Below, piece after piece: positions 26,273 through 46,968 of a DNA stretch of 51,562 nucleotides. The DNA is from a virus. The first letter of the stretch is position 1. Each line of letters begins with the position of its first letter. The translations under genes and the position numbers were made by a program. The DNA lies in the IMG/VR virus record IMGVR_UViG_3300036766_000742, positions 1 through 51,562 of that record; one strand, written 5' to 3'. The notes beneath the pieces were generated by a model. It was not told where the DNA came from. It worked only from the letters and a program-made list of their open reading frames with translations, and did not search any database.

Positions 26273-26346
26273 TGGTGGAGCCACGGGGAATCGCACCCCG
26301 ATCTCGACTATGCCATAGTCATGTCCTACTGTTGAACGATGGCCCC
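26273..26346 (-). tRNA. tRNA-Ala(GGC), variant elbow
   Basis: Acceptor GGGGCCA with TGGCTCC (one G-T), A73, CCA. Anticodon loop ATGGCAT reads GCC. Variant elbow: D-loop AACAGTA (A18 G19), T-loop TGCGATT (G55). Confidence 0.85.
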
Positions 26347-26570
26347 CATACCAGGAGGAAGTGCCTCCCGGCTGGATGTACAATACCATGAGGTATTGAC
26401 TTTCCGGCTTTTTTATACACCCGCCTCCCGGTGTTATGTATCGCCCGTGAAGTAGGAGTTGATTAACGAACCTTGATCTTATCTCAGCCTCGTTAACCCC
26501 AGGGGTATCATTTTTCGTCACCTATGCAAGCATTATGCATCCTAAGCCGTGCGTGAAAAGACGAATACCG
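26347..26570. other. Unassigned spacer in tRNA island
   Basis: No ORF of note and no complete tRNA. Contains a direct repeat of GCCTCCCGG (near 26364 and 26424) and an ATACCATGAGGTAT hairpin. TGTATC at about 26585 and GATACA at about 26436 could close a long stem. Confidence 0.3.
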
Positions 26571-26723
26571 TTATCCTACAGATACAAAATCTTTAATCAA
26601 ATCGTATAGAGACTCTATGAACTCAAACGAATGGGTTTCATATTCGCCCTTTTCGTCATTCCATATTCCAATTGTACTTTTATCTCTATCCACAATTGGT
26701 GGATGATCTTTAAATGTTAACAT
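26571..26723 (-). CDS. Small hypothetical protein
   Basis: 50 residues (MLTFKDHPPIVDRDKSTIGI...), ATG at 26723, stop at 26571. It has a well-mixed composition with IWNDEKGEYETHSFEFIESL, unlike a random frame. Begins 5 nt after the 3' end of tRNA-Ala(UGC). No family recognised. Confidence 0.5.
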   Translation of the reverse strand: MLTFKDHPPIVDRDKSTIGIWNDEKGEYETHSFEFIESLYDLIKDFVSVG

Positions 26724-26727
26724 AAAT

Positions 26728-26802
26728 TGGTGGAGCTACGGGGAGTCGAACCCCGATCTGTAGCTTGCAAAGCTGCCGTATTACCGTTATACAGATAGCC
26801 CC
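26728..26802 (-). tRNA. tRNA-Ala(UGC)
   Basis: Acceptor GGGGCTA/TAGCTCC, A73, CCA, anticodon loop TTTGCAA (reads GCA), canonical D-loop with GG and T-loop TTCGACT. Confidence 0.92.
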
Positions 26803-26803
26803 G

Positions 26804-26891
26804 TAGCGGGAATTGGAGTTGCACCAATCATAGCACTTAATAAGTGCCAACGTTATGAGCGTTGTTAGCGTCCTAACGGCTTGTCCCCGCA
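26804..26891 (-). tRNA. tRNA with CAU anticodon, long variable arm, variant elbow, no encoded CCA
   Basis: Anticodon arm CAACG-CTCATAA-CGTTG (CAU). Unlike any normal Met/Ile tRNA it has a 19-nt variable region with a hairpin (GCACT..AGTGC). T-arm ATTGG-TGCAACT-CCAAT has G55. The acceptor GCGGGG/CCCGC is clear but register is uncertain by 1 nt, and the 3' end runs into tRNA-Ala(UGC) with no CCA. Decoding Met, or Ile if C34 is lysidinylated; cannot be told. Confidence 0.65.
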
Positions 26892-26987
26892 GTCCTAGAG
26901 CCAATAAATGACCGAGACGCATTACGTCTTGACAAGAAATCGCTTAGCGACTCCTTCAAATTTACTGCCAAATCAAAGAACAAAAAT

Positions 26988-27070
26988 TGGTTGCGGATCA
27001 CAGAAGTCGAATCTGGTATCGCTTGCTTATGAAACAAGAATGGTTTGTATATCCGTTCCACTCACCCGCA
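26988..27070 (-). tRNA. tRNA-Met(CAU), enlarged D region
   Basis: Acceptor TGCGGGT/ATCCGCA, A73, CCA. Anticodon loop TTCATAA on stem CTTGT/GCAAG. T-loop TTCGACT. The region between acceptor and anticodon arm is about 6 nt longer than normal, and the T-stem has one mismatch. CCGCA-ACCA resembles initiator tRNA 3' ends. Confidence 0.7.
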
Positions 27071-27107
27071 ATTCAATAATTCAAAGAACATCCAATCTTC
27101 GCCTATA

Positions 27108-27135
27108 AATATAACAGGTTTTTAGAAAATGTCAA
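27108..27135 (-). promoter_or_regulatory. sigma70-type promoter for tRNAs
   Basis: TTGACA, 16 bp, TATATT; predicted start about 30 nt before tRNA-Met(CAU). Confidence 0.65.
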
Positions 27136-27162
27136 GTACAATCTTCCTTTTTTCAATTCATA

Positions 27163-27621
27163 TCAATCTATAACAATGTACTTCTGAAACTCCAAAGGAG
27201 AAAACTTTTCAATATCTCTCAAAGCACTTGAACTGATATGTCGATATTTTGGATCACAATAAAAAGCAACTATTTTGATTTGAGGATACATTCCCCGAAG
27301 AAATGCCGCAAGATTTTGCTCGTATTCAAGATCTGCACCACTACGCAGACCACGGATAATTGTGATATTATAATTCTCTTCCATCGCTTTTACCTGCTCA
27401 ATAAGTAATGTGTTATACGATGTCGTGAACACACCGAGTTTCGCCAAAAAGTTTTCTGGAAGAGGATATCGAGCAGGCACCAATTTCATTTTTGTTGAAT
27501 TAACTCCCTTGGCAACAAGGACATTATCAAAAATCTTTGATGCTTGTATGACAATATCAAGATGCCCTTTGTGGAATGGGTCGAAACTTCCAGCGTAAAA
27601 TCCTAATGTTCGTTTATTCAT
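27163..27621 (-). CDS. coaD: Phosphopantetheine adenylyltransferase
   Basis: 152 residues from the ATG at 27621, which lies about 3 nt after the predicted transcription start; 27630 is an alternative. Nucleotidyltransferase motifs: GFYAGSFDPFHKGHLDIVIQ (T/HxGH), TIIRGLRSGADLEYEQNLA (CoaD signature) and YRHISSSALRDI (ISSS-x-R). CoaD joins 4'-phosphopantetheine and ATP to dephospho-CoA, the penultimate step of CoA synthesis, in the cytoplasm. Full length for the family (about 155-160), no catalytic residue missing. A phage-borne CoaD could keep CoA supply up during infection. Confidence 0.9.
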   Translation of the reverse strand: MNKRTLGFYAGSFDPFHKGHLDIVIQASKIFDNVLVAKGVNSTKMKLVPARYPLPENFLAKLGVFTTSYNTLLIEQVKAMEENYNITIIRGLRSGADLEYEQNLAAFLRGMYPQIKIVAFYCDPKYRHISSSALRDIEKFSPLEFQKYIVID

Positions 27622-27630
27622 AACGTCCAT

Positions 27631-27659
27631 ACTTTAACACAAAATGTTGAAGTTGTCAA
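27631..27659 (-). promoter_or_regulatory. sigma70-type promoter of coaD
   Basis: TTGACA, 17 bp, TAAAGT. Start site predicted near 27624, leaving an almost leaderless coaD mRNA. Confidence 0.65.
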
Positions 27660-28213
27660 GTGGATTCATTTGGAATAGCAATTCCTTTTAGATCCACAAT
27701 AGCTCCATATTTCCTAAAAATAGATGTAAATCTATAATGATTTATACCCCAATACACCATAGCGCAAGACATAGGCGCACCCTTGCCTCCGTTCACACCA
27801 TTGACCAAAAATTTAAGCCTCGTATCGTAAAGGAAGCAGATAGAGCGAGCCTTACCAAAGACATATTTTTTCCAGTGCCCTGTATTTGTAGCGACGGGCA
27901 CTAAAGCTAATACTTCGGAGCCATAGGACTTATGAGCTAAAGCGCAGCAATAGAGCCAATTCTTAATCCCAGTGCCCCTCTTTCGATCTAATCCGTATGG
28001 AGGATTTACATAAATATGTTTATAGTTCCAGCTATCTTTCAAGCCGTCTTGATCGGGTAATCTATACTCAACTTTCGCTTTAACTATAGAATACTGATTA
28101 GAACAAGGATCTAAATCAATCTCTCCTCCATAGAAATCTTTAACAGCCCGCACATACTGTTCAGGTGTGCCCCAATCTTGACTTAATGTGTTGATTTGTC
28201 GTCCGGCACTCAT
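27656..28213 (-). CDS. Dam-type phage DNA N6-adenine methyltransferase
   Basis: 185 residues from the ATG at 28213 (MSAGRQ...); a frame to 28288 overlaps the upstream gene. The order TLSQDWGTPEQYV, then GGEIDLDPCS and YVNPPYG (catalytic NPPY) matches the phage_Dam family (PF05869). It transfers a methyl group from SAM to adenine in DNA, most likely to protect phage DNA from restriction. A second member lies at 29963-30469. Confidence 0.85.
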   Translation of the reverse strand: MSAGRQINTLSQDWGTPEQYVRAVKDFYGGEIDLDPCSNQYSIVKAKVEYRLPDQDGLKDSWNYKHIYVNPPYGLDRKRGTGIKNWLYCCALAHKSYGSEVLALVPVATNTGHWKKYVFGKARSICFLYDTRLKFLVNGVNGGKGAPMSCAMVYWGINHYRFTSIFRKYGAIVDLKGIAIPNEST

Positions 28214-28224
28214 ACCAAATAGAT

Positions 28225-28620
28225 TTACCACCAGAGAGCACGGAACCATTTCGCAAACAATTCCATTCCCTTTTCGTATCGTTTCCAATTAGCGTCTCGT
28301 TGTTTCTCCGTGAGATTGTCGTATTTGTCATCTTCATCGTGGAGCGCCCAATCGAAAGCAAAAATCATTTCGTCGAGCATTGCTTTCCATTTTTCCATTG
28401 TTATGTTATTACCAGGATATGCAATAGTAATTTCTTTGAAGCGAATAAGACGAGGAAGAATAAACTCAGCAATCGGGTCGTACAATGACCATGTTTCAGA
28501 ATCGGAGAATCCCCATTTTTTGAGTTGTTTTATCTGAATAGCATAACGTCTGTCAGTTTTTTTCAAATAAAGAGGTTTCTTCAATGACCATTTACTCTTA
28601 AGTTGTATATTTTTATCCAT
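28225..28620 (-). CDS. Conserved-looking phage protein, unknown
   Basis: 131 residues, with two blocks: a basic N-terminus (KSKWSLKKPLYLKK) and a core FSDSETWSLYDPIAEFILPR, then PGNNITMEKWKAMLDEMIFA and DEDDKYDNLT, ending in aromatic KWFRALWW. I recall this WSLYDPIAEFI-PRL pattern from many phage genomes without a function. Starts 14 nt after tRNA-Ala(CGC). Confidence 0.6.
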   Translation of the reverse strand: MDKNIQLKSKWSLKKPLYLKKTDRRYAIQIKQLKKWGFSDSETWSLYDPIAEFILPRLIRFKEITIAYPGNNITMEKWKAMLDEMIFAFDWALHDEDDKYDNLTEKQRDANWKRYEKGMELFAKWFRALWW

Positions 28621-28633
28621 AACTATTTTGAAT

Positions 28634-28707
28634 TGGTGGAGCTAAAGGGAGTCGAACCCTTATCTTCGCAGTGCGAGTGCAATATCCTCCCGTTGAACGA
28701 CAGCCCG
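28634..28707 (-). tRNA. tRNA-Ala(CGC) with C1-C72 mismatch
   Basis: Acceptor CGGGCTG with TAGCTCC: pairs 2-71 to 7-66 form (one G-T at 3-70, the Ala identity pair) but 1-72 is C-C. Anticodon loop CTCGCAC reads GCG. D-loop AACGGGA, T-loop TTCGACT (canonical). Confidence 0.85.
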
Positions 28708-29245
28708 TTATTTAATTTGCACAACGCACCATCGAACGGTCGTCTGTGCAAATGAAATTGTTATAAAATTGGGCACTACTCCAAAAGTTGCTTCCTTTTG
28801 CCATATTCACAGCCATCGGCTATTCTTCTCCAAGAGTTTCAGTTTATTTCTTTCAACAACTCGCCTGTGCTCCTATAACTCGGCGTCAATTCGCCGCCTA
28901 GTGCATCCCAACATTTTGGGACAACTATTTTACAACAAATCTTTATGCCGCAGCCATAACCTCAATTTTGTTTTATCCCTATATTTTTCTCATGTTCACA
29001 TAACCGTGAACATGCCTATTTTTTATGAACAACAGGTGCCTCAACCCGGGCTTTACACAACGAAAAACATTATTCTTTTCCCTATTTGAGTTGCTCCTAC
29101 CTTGATGTCGTTAATGGGATTTACCCCTGCATTCGGCTGTTTTGGAGTCGAGAGTTTCCTCTGGGTGTTGTGAGCCGGTCGGGGTCACTGCGGTCAAGCT
29201 ACGCACCCAGCATAGAGTCGCTTACGGCAAAATTTCAAAGATCGT
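28708..29245 (-). ncRNA. Candidate large structured ncRNA (ROOL/GOLLD-like size and context)
   Basis: About 540 nt without a credible ORF on either strand, between a perfect promoter (29252-29279) and tRNA-Ala(CGC). It contains many short strong hairpins on the minus strand (GTTCAC-GGTTAT-GTGAAC; GGCG-GCGAATTGA-CGCC; CCCAA-AATG-TTGGG) and a GGGTG/CACCC closing pair near the 5' end. Length and position in a phage tRNA island match the known ROOL and GOLLD RNA classes, which form large RNA-only assemblies. I cannot confirm class membership without a covariance model. Confidence 0.55.
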
Positions 29246-29251
29246 GGAAGT

Positions 29252-29279
29252 ATTATATCACACCCCGATTAATTGTCAA
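29252..29279 (-). promoter_or_regulatory. Consensus sigma70 promoter of the ncRNA
   Basis: TTGACA, 16 bp, TATAAT: both hexamers perfect. Start near 29245. No start codon with a useful frame follows, so it should make a non-coding transcript leading into tRNA-Ala(CGC). Confidence 0.8.
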
Positions 29280-29282
29280 CTT

Positions 29283-29576
29283 CTAATTTAATGGAGGAAT
29301 TGGCTTCTTTTTGAAGATACTGACTATAGATCCTGCAACTTTTTCCCAATTATTTTCGGCAAGTTTGTGTGCAACTTTTGTTCCACCCAACGCTAAAGTG
29401 ACATGAACAACTGTTCGAGGTATATCAGCCATTTTTCCATCTTTTATGGTTAAAAATCCCCAACACAGAGTCACCACTGTCAACCACATAAGGAAACCAA
29501 CTTCCATCGCAGAAACTTTGTTCTGAGTGTTCCTAAAAATAGAATGCCATTTGTATTTGTAACGACCCACGGCCAT
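29283..29576 (-). CDS. Small membrane protein (holin-like size)
   Basis: 97 residues. One strong hydrophobic helix (VGFLMWLTVVTLCWGFL) and a weaker amphipathic one (VVHVTLALGGTKVAHKLA), with a basic C-terminus (FKKKPIPP). Holin-like architecture, but no lysis gene is adjacent. A TATTTATG box is 4 nt before the ATG. Confidence 0.5.
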   Translation of the reverse strand: MAVGRYKYKWHSIFRNTQNKVSAMEVGFLMWLTVVTLCWGFLTIKDGKMADIPRTVVHVTLALGGTKVAHKLAENNWEKVAGSIVSIFKKKPIPPLN

Positions 29577-29612
29577 ACTACATAAATATTGGCCGACAAA
29601 ACAAAAACAATA

Positions 29613-29966
29613 TTACTCAGATGAGTTTTGTTTTTTGGCTTCTTTTATTTCTTGAAGAAGCTTTTCTCTATCGTCTCTCCATCGTTTAATCATGAAAGCG
29701 AAAGCTAGCCGCTCTTTTTCTTCTACCATATCATTGACAAATCTGAAAACATCTTGATCAGTGGGTTTCCAATCAAATTCTTCACAGACCGAAGCAACAG
29801 CACTTCCGAGAGGAGTCATAGCAAATCCACACTCGATTACTCCCGTCTTTTCAAGTTGGACAAGATATTGAATAATAACCATCATTGAAATATGTGGAGT
29901 ATTAATATCCGTATTTTCAAGTTTAAGCCTCTCAAGGATTGCGTCAATTTTTTTTTGGGTTGTCAT
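29613..29966 (-). CDS. Hypothetical helical protein
   Basis: 117 residues, helical throughout; ISMMVIIQYLVQLEKTGVIE may be a winged-helix-like piece, and the C-terminus is a charged helix (REKLLQEIKEAKKQ). Overlaps the next methyltransferase gene by 4 nt and so is translationally coupled to it. Possible accessory or regulator of the methyltransferase; no family recognised. Confidence 0.5.
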   Translation of the reverse strand: MTTQKKIDAILERLKLENTDINTPHISMMVIIQYLVQLEKTGVIECGFAMTPLGSAVASVCEEFDWKPTDQDVFRFVNDMVEEKERLAFAFMIKRWRDDREKLLQEIKEAKKQNSSE

Positions 29967-30469
29967 AAATCCTTTTGTTTTTTACATATCATTGTTGGTA
30001 TTCCCAGAATTGAGGGATCAAAAATCACAATAGCACTTGGAAATGGTGCCGGTGAAGTTTTAAAATTTCCATCACTTTTATAACTAGGAAGTGTCTTGTT
30101 GATAAACTTTATTCGTCCAGTGATAAAAATAATTTCTGATGACTTTGTTACATAATCATACCACCACTTGGTATCTGTTCTTGCAGGAATCAGACATACT
30201 ACAATACATCCTTTTACACTTTCTTCGTATGCCTTTTTGATGAATTTTCCAATTTGTCTACCATACGGAGGATTTAACCATACTTTTCCATATGGTGCCC
30301 AGTTTTGTTGCAATGCATCAAACTCTTTACTAAAGAAGTTGGGGCATAATGCATTTTCTTTAGTTGCCGCAGCATCTAACTGAAAATCATAAATATCATT
30401 AAACTTTTTGAAGAGTTCTAGCGGGGTTTCCCATTCGTCCGAAATACTGCTAAAGTGTACATCATTCAT
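29963..30469 (-). CDS. Dam-type phage DNA N6-adenine methyltransferase (second copy)
   Basis: 168 residues. SDEWETPLELFKKFNDIYDF, then FQLDAAATKENALC and the catalytic VWLNPPYGRQIGKFIKKA are typical of PF05869. Shares the fold but little sequence with the enzyme at 27656-28213. The ATG lies about 2 nt after the predicted start of its promoter. Probably modifies adenines to mask phage DNA. Confidence 0.85.
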   Translation of the reverse strand: MNDVHFSSISDEWETPLELFKKFNDIYDFQLDAAATKENALCPNFFSKEFDALQQNWAPYGKVWLNPPYGRQIGKFIKKAYEESVKGCIVVCLIPARTDTKWWYDYVTKSSEIIFITGRIKFINKTLPSYKSDGNFKTSPAPFPSAIVIFDPSILGIPTMICKKQKDL

Positions 30470-30477
30470 AGTAAAAT

Positions 30478-30506
30478 AGTATACATTATTTCCACAACGA
30501 AGTCAA
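30478..30506 (-). promoter_or_regulatory. sigma70-type promoter
   Basis: TTGACT, 17 bp, TATACT. Predicted start near 30471, the next ATG at 30469: essentially leaderless. Confidence 0.7.
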
Positions 30507-30508
30507 GA

Positions 30509-31315
30509 TTAAAAATACTGTCCATCATTTACTTCGAGAATTATTTGTTGAATTTCTGGTCCTAGCATCACCATATCACTGGTGTTGTCTAATCTTTCTC
30601 GTCCAATTTCGCAGTAATGCTTGTCTAATTCTATATTAATAGATTTTCTCCCAAGTTGTTTACATGCAATCGCTGTAGAAAAACTTCCTCCAAAAGGATC
30701 TAAGATAATATCCCCATCATTTGATGATGCTCTGACAAATATTCTTAGCAAAGGAACTGGAATCTGACAAGGATGTTCTGTTTTATCTTTGTTGACATTT
30801 TTCACGATATTAAAGTGAAATACATCATATGGAGTTTTTCCTTTACTTCCCTCTGCTATCCGTTGTAATATCCTTTTATCAGTTGGATTGCGATAAGGCT
30901 CGGCAATATCATCCTTATTGAATACTCTGGCTTTTTTTCCTTTGATATAAAATAAGATTGAATGTTGACTCCTGGTAAAATTTGTTGGGGACATTCCTGT
31001 GTTAGTGGGATAATGCCATGTCATCCATCTTCTAAAAGTCAAATGTTTATCGAGGAATGGCATCAAATAAGCATTATTCTCAGGATAATTGAAGAGATAT
31101 AATGCGCTTCCATCACTCAATATTCTAACACATTCCGTCAACCAACTTTCACACCATTCAAGATACTCACTTCTTTTCTTGTTATCGGCATAAGAATTAT
31201 ATTTTTTACCAACATTAAAAGGAGGGTCTGTAATGATTAGATCTATACTATTGGCATCAAATTTCTTTAACTCTTCTACACAATCTCCATTGATAATTTG
31301 ATGTTCGGGTTTCAT
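30509..31315 (-). CDS. Site-specific DNA methyltransferase (N4-C/N6-A, DPPF)
   Basis: 268 residues. Motif IV is LIITDPPFNVG near the N-terminus, and the SAM-binding motif (ILDPFGGSFSTAIACKQLGR) is C-terminal, the beta-class order of type II methyltransferases. A central WHYPTNTGMSPTNFTRSQHS segment probably belongs to target recognition. It directly follows the nuclease-like gene (stop and start adjacent), which suggests a restriction-modification pair. Confidence 0.85.
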   Translation of the reverse strand: MKPEHQIINGDCVEELKKFDANSIDLIITDPPFNVGKKYNSYADNKKRSEYLEWCESWLTECVRILSDGSALYLFNYPENNAYLMPFLDKHLTFRRWMTWHYPTNTGMSPTNFTRSQHSILFYIKGKKARVFNKDDIAEPYRNPTDKRILQRIAEGSKGKTPYDVFHFNIVKNVNKDKTEHPCQIPVPLLRIFVRASSNDGDIILDPFGGSFSTAIACKQLGRKSINIELDKHYCEIGRERLDNTSDMVMLGPEIQQIILEVNDGQYF

Positions 31316-31933: not shown

Positions 31934-31948
31934 AATCAGTTTTCTTTG

Positions 31949-31965: not shown

Positions 31966-31977
31966 AATTTTACAAAT

Positions 31978-32122: not shown

Positions 32123-32204
32123 TGGTCGGGGTGGTGGGTAACGCTCCCACTTGCTTTCGCACATGATCCCAAATCATGCGGGTTCACTTTTTCCCTACAC
32201 CCCG
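32123..32204 (-). tRNA. tRNA-Pro(UGG), variant elbow, mini variable arm
   Basis: Acceptor CGGGGTG/CACCCCG, A73, CCA. Anticodon loop TTTGGGA reads CCA. D-loop AAAAGTGA, T-loop AGCGTTA (A54, G55, T58). The variable region TGC-GAAA-GCA is a hairpin with a GNRA tetraloop, not the 5-nt loop expected for Pro. Confidence 0.82.
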
Positions 32205-33267: not shown

Positions 33268-33825
33268 TTAGTTTTTTGATGTATATCTACAAACTTTTCT
33301 ACACAATTCTAGAAAATAGTCCATAGAAAAATCTTGTTTCATAAAGTTTACATCCTGATGAACCCACTGAACATTTCCTTTGATATATCCTTTATTACTA
33401 TCAATCCTGTCCACTGAGGCAGTTCCATTATGAGATGACCATCCACTACAAAATTTCAAAGGTTCTCCTGTCAAGGCACATTTTCTATTTTGTTTTAGAA
33501 ACAATTTCCATAAGTATTCCTTTGTAATATTCAATTCTAAGTTTCTATTTTTCGCCCTGAATGTTAAAACATTCCAAAATTTTCCTGGCATTTCTCCAAC
33601 CCCAGTCCATTTAGGATTGTTTTCTTTTTTCATAGTGAGATAACAACCACAAGTTTTCTTATTTCCTCTTCTTATGGCATAAAAATTCGATACTACTTCA
33701 TTTCCACAATCACATTTCCATTTACATATTAAGACTTTGGGTTTTCTCTCAACAATCTTTACAAATGAAAGGTGATAAAACTTTTTCCCGCTCAATGTTT
33801 TATTGGTATGTTTGTACGTTTTCAT
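33268..33825 (-). CDS. HNH-like homing endonuclease
   Basis: 185 residues. N-terminal AP2-like or Zn region with CKWKCDCGNEV and KKTCGCY, then NRKCALTGEPLKFCSGWSSH and TASVDRIDSNKGYIKGNVQW, the variant HNH seen in many phage mobile genes. TATTTATT lies 4 nt before the ATG. Its stop is 11 nt from the damaged start of the downstream gene. Confidence 0.8.
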   Translation of the reverse strand: MKTYKHTNKTLSGKKFYHLSFVKIVERKPKVLICKWKCDCGNEVVSNFYAIRRGNKKTCGCYLTMKKENNPKWTGVGEMPGKFWNVLTFRAKNRNLELNITKEYLWKLFLKQNRKCALTGEPLKFCSGWSSHNGTASVDRIDSNKGYIKGNVQWVHQDVNFMKQDFSMDYFLELCRKVCRYTSKN

Positions 33826-34631: not shown

Positions 34632-34721
34632 TGGCGGAAGATACAGAGCACGATTCTGATACACAATTAAGGTACGATCTGCTTAGCAGGCAGTCCTGAC
34701 ACCCCGATCAATTTATCTTCC
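34632..34721 (-). tRNA. tRNA-Ser(GCU), nested in HNH gene
   Basis: Acceptor GGAAGAT/ATCTTCC, G73, CCA, long variable arm. Loop CTGCTAA reads AGC. T-loop ATCGTGC keeps T55 but swaps the 54-58 pair to A-T. More than half of the tRNA lies inside the HNH ORF ending at 34667. Confidence 0.8.
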
Positions 34722-35221
34722 ATCTTAATAACTTTATATCCATTATGTTCTAATACTTCTTGACATAATTGTAAAAATTCATCCAATGACATATCCCCCT
34801 TTGCCATATTAGCATTTTTACATGCTAATCCCATATTTTTCAATTTACTTTTTCCTCCCTTAGAAACCGGAATAATATGGTCGCAATGATATGTCTTTGG
34901 TTGAAATAAATCTATTGGCCTCCCTGTCAAATAACATATTGGATTTGATTTTACTTTTTCTTTAAATTTTTTCGAAGAAAATCCGAGAGAAACTCGTCTT
35001 TTGGGGCAGCGTCTATTTCCATTAATAGAACTAAAATTATCTTTTTTTCTTTTCAATATTCCATTTAATGTTTTTTTATAACTTTTAATTCTATTTTTTA
35101 TTTTTTCTTTTTGTCCTTCTCCACAATGATATGAAATTGTACTTAATGAACAATTTAAAATTTTTTTAATTTCTTTATAAGATTTTCCTTCATTTCTTAA
35201 TTTCATTATTTCATCTTTCAC
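34667..35221 (-). CDS. HNH homing endonuclease with HTH, ending inside tRNA-Ser
   Basis: 184 residues, GTG start at 35221 four nt after a TATTTATT box. N-terminal helix-turn-helix (GKSYKEIKKILNCSLSTISY), basic linker, then the HNH core CYLTGRPIDLFQPKTYHCDH, IIPVSKGGKSKLKNMGLACK and NANMAKGDMS. Its last 18 codons are read from the 5' half of tRNA-Ser(GCU). Confidence 0.85.
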   Translation of the reverse strand: MKDEIMKLRNEGKSYKEIKKILNCSLSTISYHCGEGQKEKIKNRIKSYKKTLNGILKRKKDNFSSINGNRRCPKRRVSLGFSSKKFKEKVKSNPICYLTGRPIDLFQPKTYHCDHIIPVSKGGKSKLKNMGLACKNANMAKGDMSLDEFLQLCQEVLEHNGYKVIKMEDKLIGVSGLPAKQIVP

Positions 35222-35851: not shown

Positions 35852-35925
35852 TGGCTCCCGCCGAAAGTTACGCTCCTCCTCTTTCTGGGTCAAAGCCAGA
35901 CTCGCTGCTATTACAACAGGCGGGA
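35852..35925 (-). tRNA. tRNA-Gln(UUG), variant elbow
   Basis: Acceptor TCCCGCC/GGCGGGA, G73, CCA. Loop CTTTGAC reads CAA. D-loop AATAGCA (A18), T-loop AGCGTAA (A54 G55 T58). Same anticodon as the canonical gene at 35599. Confidence 0.85.
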
Positions 35926-36346: not shown

Positions 36347-36434
36347 TGGTACAGGTGGAGGGATTCGAACCCACAAGACATTCCACTTACGGATTTAACG
36401 TCTCTGCTTAGAAGGCAGTTCCGATTACACCTGC
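36347..36434 (-). tRNA. tRNA-Arg(UCU) with reduced D-arm and long variable region
   Basis: Acceptor GCAGGTG/CACCTGT, A73, CCA. Perfect anticodon arm ACTGC-CTTCTAA-GCAGA (reads AGA). Only about 8 nt separate acceptor and anticodon stems, so no D-arm can form, while the variable region is about 28 nt with AGAC..GTCT pairing. T-loop TTCGAAT. An unusual shape for an Arg tRNA. Confidence 0.7.
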
Positions 36435-36813: not shown

Positions 36814-36888
36814 TGGTAGCCCCACGGAGCAATGCTCTCACGATTTTCGGCTTGAAAGACCGATGTACTTCTCTTATACGATAGGGCC
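36814..36888 (-). tRNA. tRNA-Glu(UUC), variant elbow, copy 1
   Basis: Acceptor GGCCCTA/TGGGGCT, A73, CCA. Loop CTTTCAA reads GAA. D-loop AAGAGAA, T-loop AGCATTG with a weak T-stem. A second copy is at 41040. Confidence 0.75.
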
Positions 36889-37478: not shown

Positions 37479-37554
37479 TGGTCAGGATGATGAGATTTGC
37501 ACTCACGGTCTCACGGCCCCGAACCGTGCGCTTTCCTAGCTAAGCTACACCCTG
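37479..37554 (-). tRNA. tRNA-Pro(CGG), variant elbow
   Basis: Acceptor CAGGGTG/CATCCTG, A73, CCA. Loop TTCGGGG reads CCG. D-loop AGCTAGGA (A18), T-loop TGCAAAT (G55). Confidence 0.88.
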
Positions 37555-39825: not shown

Positions 39826-39900
39826 TGGTCAGGATGCGGAATCTTGCAATCCGAATTTCTGGCCCCCCAGACCAGCGTGTTTCTTTTACACTACACCCTG
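39826..39900 (-). tRNA. tRNA-Pro(GGG), variant elbow
   Basis: Acceptor CAGGGTG/CATCCTG, A73, CCA. Loop CTGGGGG reads CCC. D-loop AAAAGAA, T-loop TGCAAGA. Confidence 0.85.
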
Positions 39901-40097: not shown

Positions 40098-40445
40098 TTA
40101 TTGTCGTTCTTCCCAATGTAAAATAGAATGGCAATTATGACACAGTACTATACATTTTTCTATCTCACTTAAAATCCTTTTTTTGCTCCAACCTTTATCA
40201 CATGCATTAGCCAACGCAATATCTTTTTTAATTGGATCGGTATGATGAAATGAAAGAGTTGCGATATGATTTTGTGGACATTTAGAACATTTCAGTGTTG
40301 TTTTCATAGTCTGAAACCATTCTTTTATCATTTTTACTCTCTCTTTTTTATTTTCTTGTGAAATCTTCTTATTTCTATAATACCATTCTCTGCGATAGCG
40401 CCGCATGTCCTCTTGATTCTTTTGTCTCCATTTCTCGGTTGGCAT
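40098..40445 (-). CDS. HNH homing endonuclease
   Basis: 115 residues from the ATG at 40445 (MPTEKWRQKNQEDMRRYRRE...). Basic helical N-terminus, CSKCPQNH knuckle, then FHHTDPIKKDIALANACDKG and CIVLCHNCHSILHWEE. Closely related in layout to the HNH gene at 25260. Ends 5 nt before tRNA-Pro(UGG). Confidence 0.85.
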   Translation of the reverse strand: MPTEKWRQKNQEDMRRYRREWYYRNKKISQENKKERVKMIKEWFQTMKTTLKCSKCPQNHIATLSFHHTDPIKKDIALANACDKGWSKKRILSEIEKCIVLCHNCHSILHWEERQ

Positions 40446-40512
40446 ATACAATACATATACAGAAAAGTCTCCAACCAACAAAATATTTTTGGAGACTTAC
40501 ATCCCGATAAAA

Positions 40513-41039: not shown

Positions 41040-41114
41040 TGGCAGCCCCAGTCGGTGACGCTCCGACTTCCTCTGCTTGAAAAACAGAAATATTAGCTGG
41101 TATACGATAGGGCC
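41040..41114 (-). tRNA. tRNA-Glu(UUC), variant elbow, copy 2
   Basis: Acceptor GGCCCTA/TGGGGCT, G73, CCA. Loop TTTTCAA reads GAA. D-loop ACCAGCTA, T-arm GTCGG-AGCGTCA-CCGAC. Confidence 0.85.
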
Positions 41115-41120
41115 ATAAAT

Positions 41121-41619: not shown

Positions 41620-41621
41620 AT

Positions 41622-41740: not shown

Positions 41741-41746
41741 ATAAAT

Positions 41747-41821: not shown

Positions 41822-41837
41822 TTTAATATATTGAAAT

Positions 41838-41914
41838 TGGTACTCCAGGCAGGAATCGCACCCGCTATTCTCGTGGTTCGAAGCCACGCATGATTCTATT
41901 ATCACCACTGGAGC
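41838..41914 (-). tRNA. tRNA-Arg(UCG), variant elbow
   Basis: Acceptor GCTCCAG/CTGGAGT, A73, CCA. Stem CGTGG/CCACG, loop CTTCGAA reads CGA. D-loop TAATAGAA, T-arm GCGGG-TGCGATT-CCTGC. Confidence 0.88.
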
Positions 41915-42057: not shown

Positions 42058-42133
42058 TGGTCAGGTGGATGGGGTTCGAACCCATTCCGTCAGATTCACA
42101 GTCTGAGATGCTACCAAATACACCACGCACCTG
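42058..42133 (-). tRNA. tRNA-His(GUG), canonical elbow, A73
   Basis: Acceptor CAGGTGC/CCACCTG, A73, CCA; the -1 base is T, so no G-1:C73. Loop CTGTGAA reads CAC. T-loop TTCGAAC. Confidence 0.88.
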
Positions 42134-42546: not shown

Positions 42547-42636
42547 TGGCTCTCGGGGTTGGGGTCGAACCAACACAAGCATTGTTCATGTCTTCTGGTT
42601 AACAGCCAGCGGCTTCACCGATTAAGCTACCCGAGA
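42547..42636 (-). tRNA. tRNA-Asn(GUU), canonical elbow, long variable arm
   Basis: Acceptor TCTCGGG/CCCGAGA, G73, CCA. Stem CTGG/CCAG, loop CTGTTAA reads AAC. T-loop TTCGACC, D-loop AATCGGTG. Variable region of about 20 nt (AAGACAT..ATGCTT), abnormal for Asn. Confidence 0.82.
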
Positions 42637-42642
42637 ATAAAT

Positions 42643-42717
42643 TGGCTCCAAAGGCTGGACTCGCACCAGCACTAAACAGTTTAACAAACTGCTGTGCTAC
42701 TTTAACACTACTCTGGA
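42643..42717 (-). tRNA. tRNA-Asn(GUU), variant elbow
   Basis: Acceptor TCCAGAG/CTTTGGA, G73, CCA. Stem GCAGT/ACTGT, loop TTGTTAA. D-loop TAAAGTA, T-arm GCTGG-TGCGAGT-CCAGC. Directly beside the canonical Asn gene. Confidence 0.88.
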
Positions 42718-42723
42718 ATAAAT

Positions 42724-42799
42724 TGGTCGCCTTCGCCAGACTTCATCTTGGCATCTTTTCCCCAAATGGGAAGCGTTCTGGATTTTGAACTATTAGGCG
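42724..42799 (-). ncRNA. tRNA-like RNA, anticodon uncertain (UUU?)
   Basis: Acceptor CGCCT/AGGCG, A73, CCA, perfect D-stem GTTC/GAAC. Anticodon loop CATTTGG on TTCC/GGAA would give UUU with A33. T-loop ATGAAGT has G56 while the D-loop AAAATCCA has C where G19 is expected, a possible swap of the 19-56 pair. Confidence 0.5.
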
Positions 42800-42805
42800 T
42801 TAAAT

Positions 42806-42896
42806 TGGTGCCTCAAGAAGGAGTTGAACCTTTTCGTCATCCGCCTCATTTATTTTTCGACATTTGATTTACAGTCAAACATGAGGAACTTTCGGC
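42806..42896 (-). tRNA. tRNA-Tyr(GUA), irregular copy
   Basis: Perfect anticodon arm TTTGA-CTGTAAA-TCAAA, T-loop TTCAACT, A73, CCA, long variable region. The 5' acceptor GCCGAAA matches TTGAGGC poorly and no D-arm forms; instead CCTCAT near the 5' side pairs with ATGAGG in the variable region. Possibly non-functional; a normal Tyr gene is at 44444. Confidence 0.6.
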
Positions 42897-42903
42897 ATAT
42901 TAT

Positions 42904-43209
42904 TTATCTTTGATTTGTGTTTGATCCATTCCGAGAATGGAATCTGATTACATACTTCATTCGTTGAAGAATATCAGGGTCAAGATTGTTTTTACTTGAA
43001 AATTCATCTAATTGTTTAAACCTCCCAAGCAAATAAATCGTTCTCAATCGTTGATAATGATTTTTATTTTCTGCGGCACGTTTCAATCTTTTTGCATCAT
43101 AAAAAGTAGAAACGATAAACACGATAATCTTTTTCCGAAAGATCCCACGGAAAGCCTGAATTCGTTCCATGAGAATTTCGCCGCACTTGGTTTTCCCTAA
43201 TTCATACAT
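42904..43209 (-). CDS. Basic hypothetical protein
   Basis: 101 residues from the ATG at 43209 (MYELGKTKCGEILMERIQAF...). Basic helices and one hydrophobic strand (KKIIVFIVSTFYDA), C-terminal YVIRFHSRNGSN. The ATG coincides with the predicted start site of its promoter. No family recognised. Confidence 0.5.
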   Translation of the reverse strand: MYELGKTKCGEILMERIQAFRGIFRKKIIVFIVSTFYDAKRLKRAAENKNHYQRLRTIYLLGRFKQLDEFSSKNNLDPDILQRMKYVIRFHSRNGSNTNQR

Positions 43210-43215
43210 GAACAA

Positions 43216-43243
43216 ATTATAACACACATTGAAAAATTGTCAA
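43216..43243 (-). promoter_or_regulatory. sigma70-type promoter
   Basis: TTGACA, 16 bp, TATAAT; predicted start 43209-43210, the ATG itself. Confidence 0.75.
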
Positions 43244-43272
43244 GTGTCTATTATCATTAGTCCTCACTTCCA

Positions 43273-43605
43273 TTATCTATCTTTAAGTTGTATTTGATCC
43301 ATCCCCATAATAACTGGTTTTATTTCAATCAGGAGTTGAACTATTTGTTGTAACTTTTGCATGGCCGTTGGAATATTTGCTGGAACTGGGCCATGCAAAG
43401 CTGGCGAATACATACTTCTAAAATCCTTTACTTCATTAGTAACGTTTTCCAAGGAGACAATCAAATTTCGCCATGTCTTTCCAATTTCAGTTGATACTGT
43501 GATATTGTTGTAAATAGATTCGAAGTCTGCTAAACTCTCACGAACATGAAGAATTTCTTCATTGACAGTTTGCTTGATGAGCGATTGAAGTTCAATTTTA
43601 TCCAT
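43273..43605 (-). CDS. Helical hypothetical protein
   Basis: 110 residues, helices only (LQSLIKQTVNEEILHVRESL; TWRNLIVSLENVTNEVKDFR; AMQKLQQIVQLLIEIKPVIM). Coiled-coil or four-helix bundle. A TATTTATA box lies 4 nt before the ATG, so it may be expressed late. Confidence 0.5.
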   Translation of the reverse strand: MDKIELQSLIKQTVNEEILHVRESLADFESIYNNITVSTEIGKTWRNLIVSLENVTNEVKDFRSMYSPALHGPVPANIPTAMQKLQQIVQLLIEIKPVIMGMDQIQLKDR

Positions 43606-43785
43606 ATTCTATAAATATGAACCAATTATCGTAAGCCAAGCATAAAGAGAAAATATACTTTTGCTTGACTTATGTTTCCTCTTCTAATGTGTTTCCAAAA
43701 GGATTTCCACATTATGAGGCGTCTCCACAACCATAATGCCGTGGGCGAAGTATATGCCTTATGGAATAGATAAAAATACATAATT

Positions 43786-43938
43786 TTATGCTTTCACTCT
43801 ATTCTGACGGAGAATTTCTTCAATCTCCTTCATACGAGCAACCATCATTCCTTGCCGGTCTGCTCCTACTTCCGGTGTCTTTTTCTTTAGACGATTAAGA
43901 CGATTCTTTAATTTGCCAATCATGTGTGCCGAATTCAT
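43786..43938 (-). CDS. Small basic helical protein
   Basis: 50 residues (MNSAHMIGKLKNRLNRLKKK...), overlapping the upstream gene by 4 nt (ATGA). Predicted two helices. Coding character supported by the overlap; function unknown. Confidence 0.5.
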   Translation of the reverse strand: MNSAHMIGKLKNRLNRLKKKTPEVGADRQGMMVARMKEIEEILRQNRVKA

Positions 43939-44297
43939 ATTTTTAGTTCCTTACTAAATAGACTTTCTTCCCATTCTGATAATTCTCCATCAGATTGCAG
44001 TTTTTTCCAATCAATCTCCTTTATACCAAGGGGAATTGTATTTAAAATGTGTCTTTTTATTCTTAAAGATTTTTCATAAACCTTTATTTCATCTTCCGAT
44101 AAATAATTTTGCACTTTACATTTGTATGAACTAAATTCTTTCATATCCTCTTTGCATTTATCACAACTGCCACTATTACAAGAACTATTTTTGCATTCGG
44201 GGCAAGTGATAACTGCAACATCACATAGATCACACCAACTTAATTCATATTTATCTTTCCACATTTTTGTATCAAGTCCGTCCACAGCATTATTCAT
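43935..44297 (-). CDS. Cys-rich Zn-binding protein
   Basis: 120 residues. WCDLCDVAVITCPECKNSSC and NSGSCDKCKEDM hold seven cysteines in CxxC pairs, two likely zinc sites. The C-terminal half is helical and acidic. Followed by a translationally coupled small gene. Confidence 0.55.
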   Translation of the reverse strand: MNNAVDGLDTKMWKDKYELSWCDLCDVAVITCPECKNSSCNSGSCDKCKEDMKEFSSYKCKVQNYLSEDEIKVYEKSLRIKRHILNTIPLGIKEIDWKKLQSDGELSEWEESLFSKELKI

Positions 44298-44327
44298 ATT
44301 TATCCTTTCTATTAAAATTAGGATGAC

Positions 44328-44382
44328 AATAAGTAGTTATCAGTTACCCTATTAAGTGTCACAGCTATCACACTACTTATAA
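44328..44382 (-). repeat. Inverted-repeat-bracketed element
   Basis: Perfect 9-bp terminal repeats (ATAAGTAGT...ACTACTTAT on the minus strand) enclose about 37 nt. Similar in style to the elements at 37561, 41483 and 41915. Confidence 0.5.
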
Positions 44383-44443
44383 GAATGATAAATTCTTGTT
44401 TCACTAATAATGATGTTTATGCAACAATCATATTGTCATAAAA

Positions 44444-44530
44444 TGGTGGGCATGAAAGGACTCGAACCTTCGGAGACCGTTAGGTCGCAAGTTTTACAGA
44501 CTCGTGTAATTGCCGCTATACGACACGCCC
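44444..44530 (-). tRNA. tRNA-Tyr(GUA)
   Basis: Acceptor GGGCGTG/CATGCCC, A73, CCA. Stem CGAGT/ACTTG, loop CTGTAAA reads UAC. Long variable arm, D-loop with GG, T-loop TTCGAGT. Confidence 0.9.
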
Positions 44531-44624
44531 AATATGGATAACGATTGCTCCCAACAACTGGAAAAGTAATATCTTATATTATCAATGAGACGAGTTCCTC
44601 ATCCGACGTTCTATCCACATAAAT

Positions 44625-44698
44625 TGGTATTCCTATCCGGTTACGCTCCGGACCCTTAAACTTGAGAGGTTTATGATCTGCTACTAATCTATAGGAAC
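44625..44698 (-). tRNA. tRNA-Glu(CUC), variant elbow
   Basis: Acceptor GTTCCTA/TAGGAAT, A73, CCA. Stem TAAAC/GTTTA, loop CTCTCAA reads GAG. D-loop AGTAGCA, T-arm TCCGG-AGCGTAA-CCGGA. Confidence 0.88.
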
Positions 44699-44758
44699 AT
44701 TAAAATTGGTACACTTCCTTTTTTTCGATTTTGGCATTTCGAATCTCTATTTATATTC

Positions 44759-45439
44759 ATGTTCATAGAATCAAAAGAATTTGAAAAACTTAAAAGTCGA
44801 GACATCGTTCCCTTTTCATGTAAAATATGCGGAAATATTTTTTATAGACCAAAACACACAGTTCAAGATATCTTGAAGGGAAATTCAAAAAGAAAACTAC
44901 TTACATGTTCAAAAACTTGTCAATTCGAACATTTAAAAAAACGAAAAAAACTTATTTGTGAACAATGTAAAATTAAATTTGAAAGAATATTATCTCACTG
45001 TAAAGGGAAACATAACTTTTGTTCATCTTCTTGTGCAGCAAAATATAATAATACTCATAAAACCACAGGCTATCGACGCTCCAAACTCGAAAAATGGATC
45101 GAAAAACAACTTATCATCAAATATCCAAGACTCCAAATTAATTATAACAAAACCGATGCTATAAATGGAGAATTAGACATCTATATCCCATCTCTAAAAT
45201 TAGCGTTCGAATTGAATGGTATATTCCATTATGAACCTATTTATAGTAAAGAACAATTTAATAATGTACAAAATAATGATAAGCGAAAATTTCAAGCATG
45301 TTTGGAACGAGGAATAGAACTTTGTATTTTAGATGTTTCTTCTCAAAAATATTTTAAAGACAAAACATCAATAAAATATTTAAAAATAATTGATGATATA
45401 ATAAAAGAACATTTAAATGGTGCTGTTGTCGGGATTTGA
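44759..45439 (+). CDS. Homing endonuclease, Zn-finger + Vsr-like nuclease (plus strand)
   Basis: 226 residues. Cys clusters (CKICGNIFYRPK...LLTCSKTC; CEQCKIKF...FCSSSC) then a nuclease domain KLEKWIEKQLIIKYPRLQIN, GELDIYIPSLKLAFELNGIF-HYEP and NDKRKFQACLERGIELCILD. Same family plan as the gene at 8134. It reads towards tRNA-Arg(GCG), and its last 22 nt overlap the tRNA 3' end antisense. TATTTATA is 3 nt before the ATG. Confidence 0.8.
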   Translation: MFIESKEFEKLKSRDIVPFSCKICGNIFYRPKHTVQDILKGNSKRKLLTCSKTCQFEHLKKRKKLICEQCKIKFERILSHCKGKHNFCSSSCAAKYNNTHKTTGYRRSKLEKWIEKQLIIKYPRLQINYNKTDAINGELDIYIPSLKLAFELNGIFHYEPIYSKEQFNNVQNNDKRKFQACLERGIELCILDVSSQKYFKDKTSIKYLKIIDDIIKEHLNGAVVGI

Positions 45440-45493
45440 ACCCGAAACAAAACTTTCGCAAAGTTTTATGATATCCATTTTCACCACACCAGC
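45418..45493 (-). tRNA. tRNA-Arg(GCG)
   Basis: Acceptor GCTGGTG/CAACAGC (one mismatch at 5-68), A73, CCA. Stem AAACT/AGTTT, loop TTGCGAA reads CGC. D-loop AAATGGA, T-loop TTCAAAT. GCG is an unusual anticodon for the CGN box, normally ACG. Confidence 0.88.
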
Positions 45494-45499
45494 ATAAAT

Positions 45500-45573
45500 T
45501 GGTAGGCGATCTTGGTAACGCTCCAAGGAATTCCCCTTATCAGGAGGATAGTATACTTTTTACTTAATCGCCC
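45500..45573 (-). tRNA. tRNA-Ile(GAU), variant elbow
   Basis: Acceptor GGGCGAT/ATCGCCT, A73, CCA. D-arm AGTA-AAAAGTA-TACT. Anticodon arm TCCTC-CTGATAA-GGGGA reads AUC. T-arm CTTGG-AGCGTTA-CCAAG. Confidence 0.88.
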
Positions 45574-45648
45574 ATAAATATATTTCTGGATTTCACTACT
45601 GTTCCGTTTGTACACAACGTCTATCAGGTTTTTGGTAATCAAATTACT

Positions 45649-45727
45649 TCATCAATCTTCTCAGACTTGCACTGAGATCTTCAAGTTAGAAATATGCTTG
45701 CGTGCTCGCTACTTACACCAAGAATAG
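45649..45727 (-). pseudogene. Degenerate tRNA of the variant type
   Basis: Perfect T-arm CTCAG-TGCAAGT-CTGAG and D-arm GTGT..GCAC with TAGC, but a poor acceptor, a 9-nt or larger anticodon loop and no CCA. Confidence 0.4.
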
Positions 45728-45751
45728 CCTTCATCTTGATTATCAAGAAAG

Positions 45752-45826
45752 TGGCGGGCATACGGGGTTACGCTCCCTCGGACTTCTGCGTGACAAGCAG
45801 ATAGGTTACTATTACTTTATATGCCC
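45752..45826 (-). tRNA. tRNA-Asp(GUC), variant elbow
   Basis: Acceptor GGGCATA/TATGCCC, G73, CCA. Stem TCTGC/GCAGA, loop TTGTCAC. D-loop AATAGTA, T-loop AGCGTAA on a weak T-stem. 5' end overlaps the HNH gene end. Confidence 0.82.
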
Positions 45827-46228
45827 AAATTTAATCTGCCTTAAAATCTTAGCGCCTTCTATCATATTTTTTCTCCCATCGTCAGAAGCATTATTCACTC
45901 CCCAAGTAGAAGTTTGTGTATGGCAATTAGGACAAATCATTCGTAAATTTTCTATTCGATTATCCTTTACATCTCCATTTATATGGTCAATTTGTAGTCT
46001 TAAAAATATATCGTTCCATTTATTTCTCAAGTTACAAATTTTACATTTTTGCTCTAAATTTCCATATATCCATTTTCTCAATGTTCTATTAAGAATGGTA
46101 TTCTTTTTTAATCGCTTCATAGTAAAATAATCTCCATGACATTTATTAGAACAAAACATTCCCTTAGAACGTTTGTCGTTATATGAAAATTCATATTTAC
46201 AATGCTGACATATACTTTTCTTAATCAT
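45812..46228 (-). CDS. HNH homing endonuclease ending in tRNA-Asp
   Basis: 138 residues. CQHCKYEFSYNDKRSKGMFC-SNKC finger, basic linker, CKICNLRNKWNDIFLRLQID, HINGDVKDNRIENLRMICPN and CHTQTSTWG: an HNH fold (IDHINGD...NL...CPNCH). The final codons (FGHIK-stop) are read from the 5' acceptor strand of tRNA-Asp(GUC). TATTTATC box 3 nt before the ATG. Confidence 0.88.
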   Translation of the reverse strand: MIKKSICQHCKYEFSYNDKRSKGMFCSNKCHGDYFTMKRLKKNTILNRTLRKWIYGNLEQKCKICNLRNKWNDIFLRLQIDHINGDVKDNRIENLRMICPNCHTQTSTWGVNNASDDGRKNMIEGAKILRQIKFGHIK

Positions 46229-46267
46229 GTTGATAAATAGTAGATTCCTACACTAAACATCATCTCT

Positions 46268-46405
46268 CTACATTTTTATATTGACTAGATATATTTCAGT
46301 TTTCTCGTTTATTGAAAATCTTGATAACGGTGTTGTTTTCTTTTTATCAAGACCCACATACAACCAGCCCGTAAGACACACAAACTGATTTGTCAACTTA
46401 ACCAT
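46268..46405 (-). CDS. Small hypothetical protein
   Basis: 45 residues (MVKLTNQFVCLTGWLYVGLD...), ATG at 46405 after tRNA-Lys(CUU). Beta-rich with LSRFSINEKTEIYLVNIKM at the end. Modest coding evidence. Confidence 0.4.
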   Translation of the reverse strand: MVKLTNQFVCLTGWLYVGLDKKKTTPLSRFSINEKTEIYLVNIKM

Positions 46406-46415
46406 ATCATTAAAT

Positions 46416-46490
46416 TGGTGAGCCGCCACGGTAATGCTCCGTGTTCTAGGGATTAAGAGGCCCTTGCTTCACTATTAAAGCTTGCAGCCC
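46416..46490 (-). tRNA. tRNA-Lys(CUU), variant elbow
   Basis: Acceptor GGGCTGC/GCGGCTC, A73, CCA. Loop CTCTTAA reads AAG. D-loop TAATAGTG, T-arm CACGG-AGCATTA-CCGTG. Confidence 0.85.
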
Positions 46491-46497
46491 ATAAAAT

Positions 46498-46572
46498 TGG
46501 GGTGATATATGGGTGCTGCCCCCATTCCGTTGGCTCCACAGGCCAAGGTACTACTGTTATACGAATACCACC
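46498..46572 (-). tRNA. tRNA-His(GUG), variant elbow, G-1:C73
   Basis: Acceptor GTGGTAT/ATATCAC with encoded G-1 and C73, CCA. Stem TTGGC/GCCAA, loop CTGTGGA. D-loop AACAGTA, T-arm ATGGG-GGCAGCA-CCCAT (G54 G55, G58). Confidence 0.85.
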
Positions 46573-46585
46573 ATAAGGTGTTTCT

Positions 46586-46674
46586 TTGCTGAACTTGATT
46601 GAACTTGATGAACGTTACACCAGTTCACTGGAATTATGAGTCCCTACCTCCAAACGCTTTAGGTAACTCAGCAA
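46586..46674 (-). ncRNA. tRNA-like RNA with CAU anticodon arm, no CCA
   Basis: Acceptor TTGCTGA/TCAGCAA (7 of 7), D-stem TACC/GGTA, anticodon arm GGGA-CTCATAA-TTCC. No recognisable T-arm and no CCA. Like the other CAU gene at 26804, it lacks an encoded CCA. Confidence 0.45.
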
Positions 46675-46733
46675 TACGTTAGATGCGTTCACCCGAAAGT
46701 GATTTACCGGCATCTCTAATTAGAAACAGAAAT

Positions 46734-46807
46734 TGGCAGATGCCGTAGGATTTGAACCCACACAAATTCTTTTGGAGAGAATTATGCTTCCATTACATCA
46801 GGCATCT
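46734..46807 (-). tRNA. tRNA-Trp(CCA)
   Basis: Acceptor AGATGCC/GGCATCT, G73, CCA. Stem ATTCT/AGAAT, loop CTCCAAA reads UGG. D-loop AATGGAA, T-loop TTCAAAT. Confidence 0.92.
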
Positions 46808-46809
46808 AT

Positions 46810-46886
46810 TGGTGATCCGGGTGGGAGTTGAACCCACAACTTTCGGGTTAAAGGCCCGCTACTCTTCCAGTTTGAGTTACCAGACC
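46810..46886 (-). tRNA. tRNA-Lys(UUU), canonical elbow, C33
   Basis: Acceptor GGTCTGG/CCGGATC, A73, CCA. Stem CGGG/CCCG, loop CCTTTAA: C33, reads AAA. T-loop TTCAACT. Confidence 0.88.
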
Positions 46887-46891
46887 GAAAT

Positions 46892-46968
46892 TGGTGAGGC
46901 CGGAGGGACTTGCACCCACTGCCGATGGTTTAAAAGACCATTGCTACATCTATATGAGCTTCGACCCC
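46892..46968 (-). tRNA. tRNA-Lys(UUU), variant elbow
   Basis: Acceptor GGGGTCG/CGGCCTC, A73, CCA. Stem ATGGT/ACCAT, loop CTTTTAA reads AAA. D-loop with TAGA, T-loop TGCAAGT. First gene of the array in the direction of transcription. Confidence 0.88.

Follow-up and report, generated by a model that had tools for sequence, protein, structure and literature searches.

An alternative tRNA elbow with A18 and G55 in a phage tRNA cluster, SAR11 bacteria and verrucomicrobial tRNA arrays

A viral DNA stretch of 51,562 bases (IMG/VR record IMGVR_UViG_3300036766_000742; hereafter the window) encodes a cluster of tRNAs in which 16 members carry A18 and G55 at the elbow in place of the canonical G18 and U55. 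The exchange is not confined to the window: positions 18 and 55 covary in viral contigs and bacterial genomes alike, and in several SAR11 bacteria A18/G55 genes are the only ones found for histidine or phenylalanine. In the usual account, almost all tRNAs have the G18-Psi55 (pseudouridine) pair, and Psi55 is conserved without exception. We read the variants as translation-competent tRNAs with an alternative elbow, probably closed as a composite GNRA tetraloop, and put the probability of this reading, built on sequence and structural analogy, at roughly 0.65.

A18/G55 tRNAs in the window

The window covers part of the genome of a large tailed phage, with genes for a baseplate wedge protein, PhoH and a DNA methyltransferase; judged by the baseplate protein, its closest annotated relative is a Microcystis phage (40% identity). 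Its tRNAs lie throughout on the minus strand, from 23876 to 46968. They were located with a purpose-written cloverleaf scanner that scores the stems, U8, A14, A21, U33, R37 (R, purine) and CCA and gives zero weight to positions 18, 19 and 54-58; shuffled sequence passed through it gave zero matches. The first-pass annotation had counted nineteen G55 tRNAs, of which only 16 were recovered by the scanner, even with two irregular genes parsed by hand and an extra search aimed at G55. The weak Rfam match at 36350 was left out of the elbow count. The set, with bases 18-19 and T-loops, is as follows.

26273-26346, minus, tRNA-Ala GGC, A18-G19 / UGCGAUU; G3:U70 kept
26804-26891, minus, tRNA-like CAU, AG / UGCAACU; long variable arm, U1.U72, no encoded CCA; the weakest member, 2 mismatches
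32123-32204, minus, tRNA-Pro UGG, A18-G19 / AGCGUUA
35852-35925, minus, tRNA-Gln UUG, A18-G19 / AGCGUAA; missed by both ARAGORN and Rfam
36814-36888, minus, tRNA-Glu UUC, A18-G19 / AGCAUUG; T-stem bulge, parsed by hand
37479-37554, minus, tRNA-Pro CGG, A18-G19 / UGCAAAU
39826-39900, minus, tRNA-Pro GGG, A18-G19 / UGCAAGA
41040-41114, minus, tRNA-Glu UUC, A18-G19 / AGCGUCA; missed by both ARAGORN and Rfam
41838-41914, minus, tRNA-Arg UCG, A18-G19 / UGCGAUU
42643-42717, minus, tRNA-Asn GUU, A18-G19 / UGCGAGU
44625-44698, minus, tRNA-Glu CUC, A18-G19 / AGCGUAA
45500-45573, minus, tRNA-Ile GAU, A18-G19 / AGCGUUA; missed by both ARAGORN and Rfam
45752-45826, minus, tRNA-Asp GUC, A18-G19 / AGCGUAA; parsed by hand
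46416-46490, minus, tRNA-Lys CUU, A18-G19 / AGCAUUA; missed by both ARAGORN and Rfam
46498-46571, minus, tRNA-His GUG, A18-G19 / GGCAGCA; G-1 (46572) and C73 present
46892-46968, minus, tRNA-Lys UUU, A18-G19 / UGCAAGU
23876-46886, minus, about 22 interspersed normal-elbow tRNAs, G18-G19 / UUC; examples are Gln UUG 35599, Asp GUC 39676, Asn GUU 42547, Lys CUU 38226, Lys UUU 46810 and Trp 46734

All 16 G55 tRNAs have A18-G19, as had been annotated, and the example pairs of D-loop and T-loop quoted in that annotation are all in place. None has the canonical G18 and U55, and the G19-C56 pair is kept in every one; in an ortholog of the CAU tRNA-like gene (L114:2641-2725) T56 stands for C56. The normal-looking neighbours do keep both canonical features, G18-G19 being present in all of the approximately 22 U55 tRNAs of the cluster that could be assigned (Fisher p = 4.5e-11 against the 16). 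About half of the variant T-loops read A54-G55-C56-R57-U58, with the 54-58 pair reversed, and one has G54...G58. The set has the tRNA cloverleaf, with acceptor, D, anticodon and T stems of 7, 4, 5 and 5 base pairs, anticodon and T loops of 7 nucleotides, near-perfect pairing and an encoded CCA in 15 of the 16. Identity elements are in place in the tRNAs for Ala (G3:U70), His (G-1 and C73) and Pro (C1:G72/A73). Standard finders detect only part of the set: ARAGORN finds 6 of the 16 and misses 10, and the Rfam model RF00005 finds 9 and misses 7.

Covariation of positions 18 and 55

The pattern used to scan the IMG/VR and GTDB collections fixed the tRNA register and left one partner position free. 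The counts, made among the matches listed, measure coupling and not frequency. With 18 free in IMG/VR, A18 was found in 114 of 114 distinct tRNA-like matches to A54-G55-C56-R57-U58 and in 97 of 98 to U54-G55-C56-R57-A58; with A18 fixed and 55 free, 97 matches had G55 and 4 had U55. All 88 tRNA-like GTDB matches listed had A18 when 18 was free, and chance matches without a tRNA fold had mostly C, T or G there. When every tRNA matching a search pattern was removed from the fetched loci, the 2,084 bystander tRNAs that remained comprised 1575 G18/U55, 481 A18/G55, 17 G18/G55 and 11 A18/U55. This bystander-only test gave the same result, and selection by the search pattern is thus rejected as the source of the coupling. 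The apparent G18/G55 exceptions are mostly tRNAs with D-loops one base longer than the assumed register, with AG further on, and a few of them may be real.

Phylogenies were built for each anticodon, with the stems and the anticodon loop as sole input (about 53 positions), and independent pairs are counted on supported branches, the only ones that can be trusted. Among the bystanders, both bases changed in the same way in 88.1 pairs and in opposite ways in 0, and 18 changed without 55 in 3.9; with all tRNAs the figures are 107.5, 0 and 4.5. The co-switches are spread over about 35 anticodons. Near-identical pairs of canonical and variant tRNAs exist in several isoacceptors. L119:7140 and L210:5643, both of them viral genes for Glu-UUC, differ in the elbow alone, at base 18 (A/G) and at 54, 55, 57 and 58 (GGCAGAA/AUCGUAA). 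Similarly, tRNA-Ala GGC has A18/UGCGAUU in the window and G18/UUCGAUU in two relatives (L114:3281 and L111:7048), and its odd anticodon loop is common to the window and the L114 ortholog. Shuffles, fixed 7-nucleotide D-loops and the near-identical pairs rule out chance or misalignment. The free-position scans, bystanders, co-switches and near-identical pairs strongly support true covariation of 18 and 55 at the tRNA elbow, as the first-pass annotation had proposed; the contrary outcome that it had named, A18 and G55 failing to occur together, is not what was found.

A18/G55 tRNAs are a structural class of repeated origin and not a single lineage. The earlier term 'second class' fails as a statement of descent, the state having been reached many times. 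The spread and diversification of one odd tRNA would account for isoacceptor lineages that phages and verrucomicrobial arrays have in common, such as the Pro UGG form AAAAGTGA/AGCRTTA in the window, L112 and L422. Its probability is practically nil, given roughly 88-108 independent co-switches and near-identical canonical/variant pairs in several isoacceptors, and single ancestry is ruled out by the independent pairs.

The 54-58 pair covaries separately from 18-55. In 930 tRNAs with a 7-nucleotide D-loop it is U-A in 653, A-U in 200 and G-G in 61, with few others, and each of these three pairs occurs with either 18-55 state. In the same 930 tRNAs G19-C56 is present in 881, and R57 is conserved in the variants.

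The first-pass annotation knew of no such set in one genome. The exchange extends beyond the window: viral contigs have it by the hundred, and it is also present on chromosomes of SAR11 and in tRNA arrays of Verrucomicrobia. BLAST searches with single variant tRNAs against cultured phages gave little beyond Pelagibacter phages. Among ten hand-picked phage records, of which only the two Pelagibacter phages were chosen for A18/G55, four carry the state: Vibrio phage 2.275.O (Tyr, Cys), LR756508 (Asp) and the Pelagibacter phages HTVC008M and Mosig (Gly). It was not found in the stretches read of XacN1, Atu_ph07, CBB, CcrBL9, S-CRM01 and Mel-JY01. The two Pelagibacter phage genes are

NC_020484.1:91140-91213, A18/G55 tRNA-Gly ACC of HTVC008M
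MT647606.1:7779-7852, A18/G55 tRNA-Gly ACC of Mosig

Across these two phages the gene is unannotated or lies inside a hypothetical protein; in HTVC008M it is the single tRNA and unannotated.

Probable use in translation

In the SAR11 genome G021, which has about 22 canonical tRNAs, every gene found for the His, Phe and Val anticodons is A18/G55. A pattern agnostic to the T-loop identified eight sampled SAR11 genomes in which the only tRNA-His found is A18/G55; other genomes of the same order have a canonical tRNA-His. In most of the eight, and in G050, the only tRNA-Phe found is likewise A18/G55, and the Phe elbow switches independently of the His elbow (for example, G104 versus G050). Since a free-living bacterium needs to decode His and Phe codons, the A18/G55 elbow is almost certainly translation-competent, as judged from gene content in genomes some of which are drafts.

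We regard it as very improbable that the variants are only tRNA-like, being in decay or having no part in translation. Such a nature would suit the CAU-like RNA at 26804-26891, which has mismatches and no CCA, and the presence in the window of normal-elbow copies for Gln, Asp, Asn, His and Lys as well. It does not agree with the encoded CCA in 15 of 16 genes, the near-perfect stems, the retained identity elements or a covariation so strict as to be unlike decay, and sole use for His and Phe in SAR11 largely refutes it.

Proposed structure of the elbow

In canonical tRNA, base 18 is inserted between 57 and 58 and is contacted by 55 (PMC4810234). In the UGNRA 'lonepair triloop' of riboswitches, the triloop G commonly pairs with an outside A to give a composite GNRA tetraloop, and the motif folds in RNAs without Psi55 (PMC2258182). 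Since A18 and G55-C56-R57 fit this triloop with its outside A, and R57 is conserved, we infer by analogy a composite GNRA elbow and its exact geometry: A18 would slot between 57 and 58, in the place of canonical G18, and G55-C56-R57 and A18 would form the tetraloop with a G55.A18 pair. The UGCRA members match U54-G55-N-R57-A58; the AGCRU and GGCRG members depart from it at the closing pair, with G55 and R57 retained. G19-C56, the flat elbow face that RNase P and the ribosome recognise, is kept, and the 54-58 pair beneath it varies independently. Positions 18 and 55 switch together, since one-step intermediates are rare, and the switch would be easiest where phages or mobile arrays carry surplus tRNA copies.

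The variants also offer fewer target bases to modification enzymes. As the first-pass annotation noted, U55, the target base of TruB, is gone; so is G18, the target of TrmH, and many variants have no U54 for TrmA. From these bases we infer loss of Psi55-, T54- and Gm18-type modification.

Several points weigh against the overall reading or limit it. The elbow geometry is carried over from riboswitch motifs, the window is only a 51.6 kb fragment, and several of the SAR11 genomes are drafts, whose assemblies may have left out a further gene for His or Phe. In addition, the clustering of the state by element, described below, exceeds what gene-by-gene drift predicts.

Possible reasons for the spread of the state

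We lean towards a near-neutral alternative reached through redundant copies, which fits the rare intermediates and the gene-by-gene switching in SAR11. The elbow state nevertheless clusters by element: 14 loci are at least 80% A18/G55, 32 of 100 loci are below 10%, and the variance is about 7 times binomial. A selective factor behind this clustering may exist. One candidate is a mark of self and non-self: phages and mobile elements that deplete or damage the tRNAs of the host, or that meet an elbow-reading nuclease or other factor, would carry a full replacement tRNA set whose elbow escapes recognition by the factor. The clustering speaks for it, as does the array of Chthoniobacter flavus, with about 20 A18/G55 tRNAs to 1 canonical, while the 29 distinct tRNAs read elsewhere in that genome are all canonical. 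This array also holds Ro60/TROVE, Band-7 and AAA genes. The Ro60/TROVE and Band-7 families have been connected with damage to tRNA and with the repair of RNA, and in Salmonella damaged tRNAs elicit a response of Ro60-type operons (PMC7790460). Ro60/TROVE genes lie in or beside the C. flavus array and five other arrays, with one weaker viral case, and Band-7 genes in two loci:

L565:8731-10169, Ro60/TROVE gene
L377:6252-7757, Ro60/TROVE gene, Verrucomicrobia
L387:2692-4119, Ro60/TROVE gene, Verrucomicrobia
L428:3455-4951, Ro60/TROVE gene, Verrucomicrobia
L354:389-1867, Ro60/TROVE gene, viral
L301:451-1773, Ro60/TROVE gene, viral
L307:12606-13754, weak Ro60/TROVE match, viral
L565:10503-11396, Band-7 gene
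L464, Band-7 gene

All of these loci were picked solely for their A18/G55 tRNAs and the scoring covered only such loci; the association of Ro60/TROVE with A18/G55 arrays is suggestive. The window has no Ro60/TROVE gene. The self-mark is nonetheless unlikely: the window and many phages mix both elbows, so an elbow nuclease would still hit half of their set, no nuclease gene is tied to the arrays and none such was found in the window, and SAR11 has the A18/G55 state without any array. A broader version, in which the elbow marks a near-complete second tRNA set that uses the same ribosome and is told apart by a nuclease, repair or quality-control factor, such as a partner of Ro60, seems to us rather unlikely.

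Independence from host modification enzymes, with a Psi-free elbow favoured where TruB is absent or limiting, is a quite improbable driver. TruB (PF01509) is present in 49 of 117 sampled genomes of the order of G021; a match is absent from every checked SAR11 genome with A18/G55 His and present in 14 of 14 control genomes, and the folding of the UGNRA motif without Psi55, cited above, is in keeping with such a driver. Against it, 26 of 31 A18/G55 Thr GGU genes are in SAR11 genomes that have TruB, C. flavus has TruB, and the TruB-less genomes with A18/G55 His keep U55 in most of their tRNAs. Loss of TruB as the full explanation is rejected, the His switch being in TruB-less and the Thr switch mostly in TruB-bearing SAR11.

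Relation to known systems

With the canonical elbow (G18-Psi55, G19-C56, U54-A58) the variants share the cloverleaf, loop sizes, G19-C56, R57, G53-C61, CCA and presumably the position of base 18 between 57 and 58; they differ in having A18-G55, often A-U or G-G at 54-58 and no U55 to pseudouridylate. The UGNRA motif, or type R1 lonepair triloop, of the thiamine pyrophosphate (TPP) riboswitch and other RNAs has the UGCRA sequence in common with part of them and, as predicted, the required outside A and its contact (PMC2258182), whereas here the motif is a tRNA T-loop, the outside A would be D-loop base 18 and many closing pairs are A-U or G-G. Natural exceptions to the G18-G19/TPsiC rule are tRNA-Pyl, tRNA-Sec and mitochondrial tRNAs, in which whole arms are changed or the D/T contact is lost (PMC7609411). 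A18/G55 tRNAs, by contrast, keep the architecture and G19-C56 intact and exchange specific pairs in nearly all isoacceptors. Phage tRNAs that evade anticodon nucleases also differ from the host at a recognition site, but the changes are in the anticodon loop, and elbow, D-loop and T-loop are unmentioned (PMC10264068). Dense mobile tRNA arrays on plasmids, prophages and chromosomes fit the verrucomicrobial examples, although no elbow change is mentioned for them (PMC5966550).

A search of the open literature, with subscription literature outside its scope, found no description of a tRNA with A18 and G55, and the exchange is absent from the searched passages of reviews on T-loops, the elbow and non-canonical tRNAs. 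Selected suppressor tRNAs with altered D/T loops have reportedly been obtained in earlier work. A second elbow that was reached many times, and that is the only one found for His or Phe in some SAR11 genomes, gives the near-universal G18-Psi55 rule a viable alternative, and leaving the rule takes two bases changing together. The variants make testable which proteins need Psi55 or G18, and if it is folding or the mark itself for which TruB and TrmA are important, and they may give an orthogonal elbow for engineered tRNAs. Because ARAGORN misses 10 of the 16 window genes and the HTVC008M tRNA is unannotated, the tRNAs of viruses and mobile elements are undercounted.

Other loop contacts and neighbouring genes

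Within A18/G55 tRNAs among the 930 with 7-nucleotide D-loops from the fetched loci, positions 16 and 59 covary (mutual information 0.35), and in the 930 A54-U58 accompanies A60; an additional D/T-loop contact may exist. A third elbow state combines G18 with C55 (T-loop UCCGANN); about 28 tRNAs have it, many on the viral contig L354 and others in L205 and elsewhere. Some viral tRNAs of the fetched contigs have stop-codon anticodons (CUA, UCA), CUA being found in both elbow classes. At 42058-42133 the window has a normal-elbow GUG tRNA with C1:G72 and A73, as in tRNA-Pro, and without G-1:C73; which amino acid it carries is doubtful. Between the window tRNAs lie short genes for HNH- or zinc-finger-like endonucleases, at 33268-33825, 34667-35221, 40098-40481 and 45812-46228, of which 34667-35221 is the one covered by the Pfam comparison.

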